Assembly (NCBI RefSeq): GCF_002893625.1
Contig: NZ_PKMZ01000001.1
Coordinates: 868,001 to 932,000, forward strand
Reading direction: 5' to 3'
Source of the DNA: Mangrovicella endophytica
Lineage (GTDB): Bacteria > Pseudomonadota > Alphaproteobacteria > Rhizobiales > Rhizobiaceae
Length of the DNA stretch: 64,000 nucleotides
The first letter of the stretch is position 1. Each line of letters begins with the position of its first letter. A program made the translations under genes and the position numbers. Below the pieces are notes generated by a model that was not told the DNA's origin, searched no databases, and saw only the letters and a program-made list of their open reading frames with translations. Positions 25,958 to 26,842 of the stretch are shown here, one piece after another.

Positions 25958-26066
25958 ACGCCCGCCGGGGGAGGACCGGCGGGCGTCGCGTTCAAGCCTG
26001 CGATGGGAGGAGGATTCGCAGGCTGCTATCCGCTTGGGCCTGGGAGGAAATGGCCCTTGCGAAACT
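25958..26066 (-). ncRNA. CcsR/cuckoo-like RNA unit 3 (distal)
   Basis: This is the third and most diverged unit of a three-fold tandem array read on the minus strand. It opens with the repeated box AGTTTCGCAA (26057-26066). It then has a weak hairpin (stem 26052-26056/26036-26040, loop with CCTCCC), a 9-bp hairpin (26016-26024/25995-26003) whose loop is ATCCTCCTCCCA, and a final 11-bp GC hairpin (25976-25986/25958-25968) with loop TCCTCCC. The last hairpin is followed on the minus strand by a modest T-containing stretch (TTGTCGTTTC), so it may terminate the array transcript. Assignment is by architecture, not by a covariance search. Confidence 0.7.
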
Positions 26067-26077
26067 ACCGAATTTGT

Positions 26078-26190
26078 GGCGCCCGTCGGAGGGAGGATCC
26101 AACGGGCGCCGTCTGAAGTCCCGCGCTGGGAGGAGGATGCGCGGGCCTCTATCCGCGTCGACCCGGGAGGAGGTGGGCCGTTGCGAAACT
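26078..26190 (-). ncRNA. CcsR/cuckoo-like RNA unit 2
   Basis: This is the middle unit of the minus-strand array. It has the box AGTTTCGCAA (26181-26190), a 6-bp hairpin (26175-26180/26159-26164) with loop ACCTCCTCCC, a 7-bp hairpin (26139-26145/26120-26126) with loop ATCCTCCTCCCA, and a long 12-bp hairpin (26099-26110/26078-26089) with loop ATCCTCCCT. Two of its stems pair completely only as minus-strand RNA: positions 26178/26161 and 26101/26087 give G-U pairs there but A-C mismatches on the plus strand. Confidence 0.75.
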
Positions 26191-26204
26191 CGTCGAAATT
26201 GGGA

Positions 26205-26315
26205 TGTCCGCCGGAGGGAGGATCCGGCGGACACCGGTCGGAAACCTGCGCTGGGAGGAGGATGCGCAGGCCTCTATCCGCTTCGGCCCGGGAGGAGGTG
26301 GGCCGTTGCGAAACT
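26205..26315 (-). ncRNA. CcsR/cuckoo-like RNA unit 1 (next to DUF1127)
   Basis: This first unit starts two bases beyond the DUF1127 stop codon. It has the box AGTTTCGCAA (26306-26315), a 6-bp hairpin (26300-26305/26284-26289) with loop ACCTCCTCCC, a 7-bp hairpin (26264-26270/26245-26251) with loop ATCCTCCTCCCA, and a 10-bp hairpin (26224-26233/26205-26214) with loop ATCCTCCCT. The exposed CCTCC runs are complementary to Shine-Dalgarno sequences. In Rhodobacter the CcsR RNAs have such loops and are processed from a transcript that also encodes a DUF1127 protein; the same arrangement is seen here. Confidence 0.78.
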
Positions 26316-26316
26316 G

Positions 26317-26460
26317 TTAGACGATCGCCTTGCGAGCGACCGACGGGATCTCGTTACGCTGGATGCCGAGGTCAGAGAGTTCACGCTGCGAGAGCCGGTT
26401 CAGCTCGTTGCAGGTCTCGCGATAACGCCGCCAGCTGCTGTAGGAACGAAGGATGTTCAT
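26317..26460 (-). CDS. DUF1127 small protein
   Basis: This 47-codon gene encodes a basic protein beginning MNILRSYSSWRRYRETC and containing LSQRELSDLGIQRNEI, the DUF1127 hallmark (L-x-DLGI-x-R-x-EI). An AGGTGG site lies a few bases before the ATG. DUF1127 proteins of Rhodobacter (CcaF1) and Agrobacterium affect RNA turnover and C1/phosphate or stress physiology; an RNA-binding function here is inferred from that family. It lies at the head of the minus-strand hairpin array and is probably co-transcribed with it. Confidence 0.9.
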   Translation of the reverse strand: MNILRSYSSWRRYRETCNELNRLSQRELSDLGIQRNEIPSVARKAIV

Positions 26461-26519: not shown

Positions 26520-26842
26520 TGACTAGAAACTACTCATTCGCTCTCGCTGGCGCTATTGGGGCAGGCGCATGGCTGCAATGCAGATTGTGCATCGCAGCAT
26601 AACCTGGAGACATCAATGGCTTAGTCGGGTTCCGGTCGCATCTGCAGCCCAGAGTCCGCTCTCTTCATCGGTGCTTAACCATTTCGCGCCGCCGAAGTTC
26701 ATCCACCTGCCACATGTATCGCAGGGTCCCCTCGAAGGGTGATCCAGCTTCGTCGAAAGCCTCGGCTTTTGCCCTTCCAACGCCGGAATCGCTTTGATAT
26801 AGAGACGCGCGCCTCGCGAGGCCGCTTAGCAAGGGCGCGCAT
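26520..26842. other. Intergenic region upstream of tRNA-Leu
   Basis: No gene recognised. TATAGA at 26798-26803 is a reasonable -10 for the tRNA-Leu promoter, but the matching -35 at 17 bases (TTCCAA) is poor. A short GC palindromic stretch (about 26807-26822) follows it. Confidence 0.35.

Follow-up and report, generated by a model that had tools for sequence, protein, structure and literature searches.

A DUF1127 gene and three tandem alpha-r14 RNAs behind a candidate LsrB/VtlR operator in Mangrovicella endophytica

The DNA analysed here, a stretch of 64,000 nucleotides from Mangrovicella endophytica (the window), holds a stress locus of an already known type, a DUF1127 message with three small RNAs directed against ribosome-binding sites, and is an expected find for its order. 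It is likely that LsrB activates a single transcript of this locus, consisting of DUF1127 and three alpha-r14 RNAs with anti-Shine-Dalgarno (anti-SD) motifs, and that these RNAs block translation starts. The initial annotation placed a 47-codon DUF1127 gene on the minus strand upstream of trmFO. Both points were borne out, with trmFO on the same strand and 3' of the array (Table 1). The gap between the DUF1127 gene and the first RNA unit is 3 nt, and trmFO probably forms a separate transcript. Two more DUF1127 genes are present elsewhere in the genome.

Table 1. Features of the locus and of a further RNA, in window positions
Feature	Position	Strand	Evidence and remarks
Candidate LsrB/VtlR operator TGCACAATCTGCATTGCAGCCATGC	26591-26567	(-)	Contains TGCA-N6-GCAT and A-N3-CA-N3-ATGC
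Predicted -10 element TAGTTT	26532-26527	(-)	Aligns with TATCTT/TATATT of relatives, a constant distance 3' of the box
DUF1127 small-protein gene	26460-26317	(-)	47 aa, arginine-rich; PF06568, 50.5 bits against a cut-off of 23.3, E=1.7e-13
alpha-r14 unit 1	26315-26200	(-)	RF02344 68.5 bits; own model 104 bits; three anti-SD hairpins, hairpin 3 without U-tract
alpha-r14 unit 2	26190-26075	(-)	RF02344 67.4 bits; own model 98.7 bits; three anti-SD hairpins, hairpin 3 without U-tract
alpha-r14 unit 3	26066-25954	(-)	RF02344 74.2 bits; in the tree nearest to the Aureimonas single unit
Last hairpin and T-rich tail GTTGTCGTTT	25993-25950	(-)	In 20 arrays, such a tail is confined to last units
trmFO	25776-24370	(-)	NF003739 TrmFO, 676 bits; synteny anchor, 3' of the array
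ar9 sRNA	57922-57767	(-)	RF02343, 58.0 bits, cut-off 45

Anatomy and family of the RNA array

Each unit begins with AGTTTCGCAA (at 26315, 26190 and 26066 on the minus strand). The period between unit starts is 125 and 124 nt, so that the unit length of about 110 nt given initially was a minor error, and pairwise identities among the units are 83, 75 and 73%. Folding of each unit gave nine hairpins in the array, three per unit, with CCUCC-bearing loops. Together with the unit alignment, this agrees with the earlier description of nine hairpins in three tandem repeats with a shared start. Loops of the anti-SD type, including CCTCCC, had also been described and were recovered: CCUCCUCCC is found in five of the nine loops (the first two hairpins in each of units 1 and 2, plus hairpin 2 of unit 3), the loop of hairpin 1 in unit 3 is UUUCCUCCC, and the third-hairpin loops of the window units are (U)CCUCCC. 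Fold z-scores relative to dinucleotide shuffles were -5.8, -4.8 and -7.2 for units 1 to 3 and -9.1 for the whole array, and the real fold was more stable than every shuffle, of which there were 300 per unit and 100 for the array as a whole. The motif CCTCCTCCC is present five times in the array versus 0.02 expected in array shuffles. This 9-mer has 58 copies in the 4.43-Mb genome, five of them inside approximately 300 nt of the array.

The locus had been read as a DUF1127-CcsR or cuckoo RNA locus, and the layout part of this reading stands. Alphaproteobacteria commonly have short DUF1127 genes together with CcsR-like sRNAs, an arrangement named CIN1 (PMC10253847). In the window a short DUF1127 gene lies directly upstream of the array on the same strand. 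A DUF1127 gene with RNAs of this type corresponds to the CIN1 "cuckoo RNA" layout described in the literature, so the locus belongs to this known kind. By contrast, the CcsR assignment has to be given up. In a covariance-model search, the check proposed for this family, all three units were above the Rfam gathering score of 58.8 bits for RF02344 (alpha-r14, the NfeR1 family), whereas no unit reached the cut-off of 65.3 bits for RF02791 (CcsR1), the scores being 33.7, 32.9 and 19.4 bits. alpha-r14 RNAs are described as having three hairpins and an ultraconserved CCUCCUCCC anti-SD motif in every one (PMC10746234). The window units likewise have three hairpins each, and their stems are conserved in structure rather than in sequence. 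By these models the array RNAs are classed as alpha-r14/NfeR1 and not as CcsR1. Three hairpins with a terminator-like third, previously put forward as a special trait, are the standard alpha-r14 plan and no novelty. A true CcsR-type locus, driven by RpoH and encoding two-hairpin RNAs as in Rhodobacter sphaeroides, would account for the gene order of DUF1127 followed by anti-SD RNAs and for the weak CcsR1 matches, but not for the missed cut-off or the three hairpins per unit. Taking into account the promoter region described below, we regard it as quite improbable.

Elsewhere in the genome there is one weak relative of alpha-r14 (38.6 bits, below the cut-off) at C2:202160-202245 (+). It is a stand-alone RNA without DUF1127, and from a reading of the sequence its flanks resemble aldehyde-dehydrogenase-type and formate-tetrahydrofolate ligase genes.

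Conservation and growth of the array

Relatives were collected by TrmFO anchoring, which gave 80 named loci. The same locus, with one to six units upstream of trmFO, is present in many Hyphomicrobiales, and DUF1127 is syntenic upstream of trmFO in relatives. There are four and six units in Aurantimonas, one in Aureimonas, two to three in Mesorhizobium, three each in Pseudaminobacter and Aminobacter, and one each in Phyllobacterium and Brucella, with others besides. In the 2.1 kb upstream of trmFO, CCTCCTCCC occurred 211 times in the forward and 0 times in the reverse orientation (81 loci), compared with a single occurrence in 313 kb of control sequence downstream. Of these 211 motifs, 69% have flanking stems of 9 or more pairs, versus 2% in shuffled sequences. 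With 94 distinct sequences, compensatory changes were observed at 19 of 19 modelled pairs, counted for hairpins 1 and 3 only, hairpin 2 being absent from the RNAalifold consensus of the initial alignment. In the same sequences paired cells amounted to 96.2% versus 74.5% in shuffles and 36-47% when slid, and the covariation score was 0.552 versus 0.171; fitting the alignment to the structure favours pairing, but the margins are large even so. The units match a known family (RF02344) and keep their loops in relatives, two of the points on which the initial annotation had let its reading depend.

The nine tandem arrays detected in 61 genomes all lie directly behind a same-strand DUF1127 gene, as do at least 25 of the 76 single units. 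This arrangement, with units directly behind the stop codon, would also be expected if the hairpins were mainly a 3' stabiliser or processing reservoir of the DUF1127 mRNA without trans action. In that case only the stems should matter and not the loop sequence, yet the loops are fixed while the stems covary across relatives. In addition, stand-alone units without DUF1127 exist, 8 of 31 with their own LsrB-type box (0.4 expected), and trans action is known for NfeR1 (PMC10746234). We therefore consider a purely stabilising role improbable and favour RNAs that act in trans.

Gene order differs among relatives. Genomes of the Sinorhizobium, Ensifer, Shinella and Rhizobium type have the reversed order upstream of trmFO, with two separate alpha-r14 units before two DUF1127 genes, each of which often has its own LsrB-type box. 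In Mesorhizobium, Pseudaminobacter and Aminobacter, two tandem DUF1127 genes precede the array and the LsrB-type element occurs only before the first. The reversed order suggests that fused operon and separate genes represent two alternative forms of a single locus.

Across 20 arrays, the mean number of T in the 16 nt behind the third hairpin was 3.3 for internal units versus 8.4 for last units (p=1.4e-8, with related arrays among the 20 not independent). Because the T-rich tail occurs on last units alone, the third hairpin of internal units resembles a disarmed terminator and that of the last unit a working one. The last hairpin of the window was not flagged by a strict terminator scan; from its sequence it is likely the terminator of the transcript. 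In a tree of units, window units 1 and 2 group together (99/98), window unit 3 is closest by path to the Aureimonas single unit and to the last unit of Aurantimonas VKM B-3413, and a second Aurantimonas contributes six units that form one group (87/94). It follows that arrays grew by local duplication in separate lineages. Independent expansion of this kind is also what a functionless degenerate repeat, selfish or derived from slippage, would produce. We give this explanation hardly any weight given the strict strand bias, the compensatory changes, the constraint on loops, the synteny over many genera and the terminator kept on the last unit alone. The read-through pattern illustrates how duplicating units in tandem within an operon can increase RNA dosage.

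Upstream control and proposed mechanism

An alignment of 20 loci shows a conserved block of approximately 30 nt upstream of DUF1127, and the spacing between this block and a TATCTT-like element is constant. Of the two motifs in the candidate operator of the window, one is the LsrB site of the NfeR1 promoter (TGCA-N6-GCAT; PMC10746234) and the other is the LsrB consensus GCAT-N3-TG-N3-T in reverse complement (PMC8844928). The box is also two mismatches from the Brucella VtlR motif CAATGCAGCCATGCA (PMC12595884). This box is the only perfect match to the composite LsrB/VtlR pattern in 4.43 Mb; allowing up to two mismatches gives 35 places, as short LysR motifs arise by chance. The 15-mer CAATGCAGCCATGCA with up to three mismatches was rejected as a genome search pattern because it was too permissive (157 matches), whereas the composite pattern was specific. 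The sole one-mismatch composite match, at C2:319356-319332 (-), lies just upstream of a short unannotated RNA that reaches approximately C2:319170. This RNA has the anti-SD motifs CCTCCTCCC and TTTCCTCCCAA and a strong terminator, matches suhB/mmgR weakly (31.1 versus 41 bits) and is a probable AbcR-like RNA. The AbcR model RF02345 (ar15) had no match in the genome and likewise none in any control genome.

Among relatives, the box is present in 15 of 25 DUF1127 genes fused to alpha-r14, versus 0.4 expected. The 10 fused genes without it are mostly the second of a pair whose first member has the element, or have a near-match. No fused alpha-r14 unit (0 of 44) has a box of its own, compared with the 8 of 31 stand-alone units mentioned above, so one operator appears to serve the whole array. 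A LysR gene at C1:537369-536473 lies directly beside trxB, which is the position of vtlR (PMC7486931). By position and fold family it is a candidate LsrB/VtlR ortholog.

A sigma-70 consensus scan found no promoter at the locus, as expected if the promoter depends on an activator; from the predicted -10 element, transcription would start near 26520. By inspection there is an RpoH-like CTTGCA-N16-TTAAATA just before the DUF1127 start codon. It may be a second promoter and would fit a CcsR-type locus, but it is not conserved in the aligned relatives, whereas the LsrB box is. These data suggest that oxidation-sensing LsrB/VtlR, and not a heat-shock factor, switches the locus on. Judging from relatives, LsrB activation can be expected with considerable confidence. 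The Rhodobacter model proposed initially thus held for gene order and chemistry but not for the RNA family or the likely control.

We propose that the redox-responsive LysR regulator LsrB/VtlR would act at the box and give rise to one transcript, with the 47-aa DUF1127 frame first and the three alpha-r14 RNAs as its 3' part. Co-transcription of DUF1127 and the array is very probable by analogy with relatives. Because the internal units have lost their terminator tails, polymerase would read past them to the last hairpin. Cuts in the A/U-rich linkers, probably by RNase E, would then release RNAs of approximately 115-125 nt, perhaps with help from the DUF1127 protein as with CcaF1 in Rhodobacter (PMC8625941). 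Relatives and the CcaF1 precedent make such processing, with the protein possibly helping, somewhat more plausible than otherwise. RNA binding by DUF1127 proteins is disputed (CcaF1 versus YjiS and PhoR), and protein-protein roles have been argued (PMC12501420). The exposed, constrained CCUCCUCCC and CCUCCC loops would imitate the anti-SD of 16S rRNA and pair with strong SDs of target mRNAs, thereby blocking translation initiation; three units would give up to nine seeds per transcript. A translation block of this kind is likely from relatives and from NfeR1, which is activated by LsrB and silences ntrB via anti-SD seeds (PMC10746234). The initial annotation also suggested Hfq co-immunoprecipitation; NfeR1, the family founder, is described as Hfq-independent (PMC10746234), and a part for Hfq in the array RNAs is doubtful.

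GGGAGGA-N4-13-ATG sites number 147 in the genome versus 14 in a reversed control, which indicates no more than that strong SDs occur often. Thirteen open frames behind SD-matched sites were read; by inspection three of them resemble solute-binding transport proteins and one an MFS transporter, which would fit the targets of NfeR1.

The window also contains an ar9 RNA (Table 1). In 23 copies of ar9 the longest near-invariant run (at least 95% per column) is GUCUUGGGAGGA. Within it, UUGGGAGGA (57879-57871 in the window) is the exact complement of UCCUCCCAA, and GUCUUGGGAGGA contains the exact complement of the UCCUCCCA alpha-r14 loops. The ar9 copies inspected have no usable start codon at SD distance, and ar9 may therefore mimic an SD and titrate anti-SD RNAs as a sponge. 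A wider scheme, in which LsrB/VtlR would run a two-armed anti-SD system (the DUF1127-alpha-r14 array and the AbcR-like RNA) with both arms buffered by ar9, is speculative and rather unlikely.

Comparison with known systems

The closest counterpart of the units is alpha-r14/NfeR1 of Sinorhizobium meliloti, with which they share three hairpins, anti-SD loops, variable covarying stems, a terminator-like third hairpin and an LsrB-type operator upstream. NfeR1 differs in that it is one RNA of 123 nt, transcribed from a sigma-70 promoter of its own and subject to NtrC control (PMC10746234), whereas the window has three units in a row behind DUF1127 under one shared operator and a third-hairpin loop shortened to (U)CCUCCC. 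This shortened loop occurs in the window, in Aurantimonas and Aureimonas relatives and in two Aminobacter units. The CIN1 cuckoo locus (Reinkensmeier and Giegerich 2015, cited in PMC10253847) likewise combines a short DUF1127 gene with CcsR-like anti-SD RNAs behind it. As CIN1 is outlined in the citing paper, no defining difference was found, and the window has the three-unit alpha-r14 version in a genome near Aurantimonas and Aureimonas. The ccaF1-CcsR1-4 locus of Rhodobacter sphaeroides (RF02791) also has a DUF1127 gene followed by tandem anti-SD RNAs. There, CcsR RNAs are processed from the ccaF1 3' UTR, the promoter is RpoHI/RpoHII-dependent (PMC10253847), the units have two hairpins and the protein has 71 aa, compared with an LsrB box, three-hairpin units and 47 aa in the window. 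The distinct traits of the window locus are its LsrB box on a fused transcript, internal hairpins that look like disarmed terminators and a third loop of reduced length.

The VtlR regulon of Brucella and Agrobacterium, with its DUF1127 genes and AbcR RNAs (PMC12595884, PMC7486931), resembles the locus in its activator box and in pairing DUF1127 with anti-SD RNAs, and both top boxes of the M. endophytica genome precede genes of this regulon type, DUF1127 and the AbcR-like RNA. In the available text of these papers DUF1127 transcripts are treated as small-protein genes, with no mention of alpha-r14 in their 3' parts. If such transcripts do carry alpha-r14, the RNAs may account for part of the phenotypes ascribed to the small proteins. 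The locus offers a testable link from the literature on the VtlR/LsrB regulon to the work on the anti-SD RNAs NfeR1 and CcsR.
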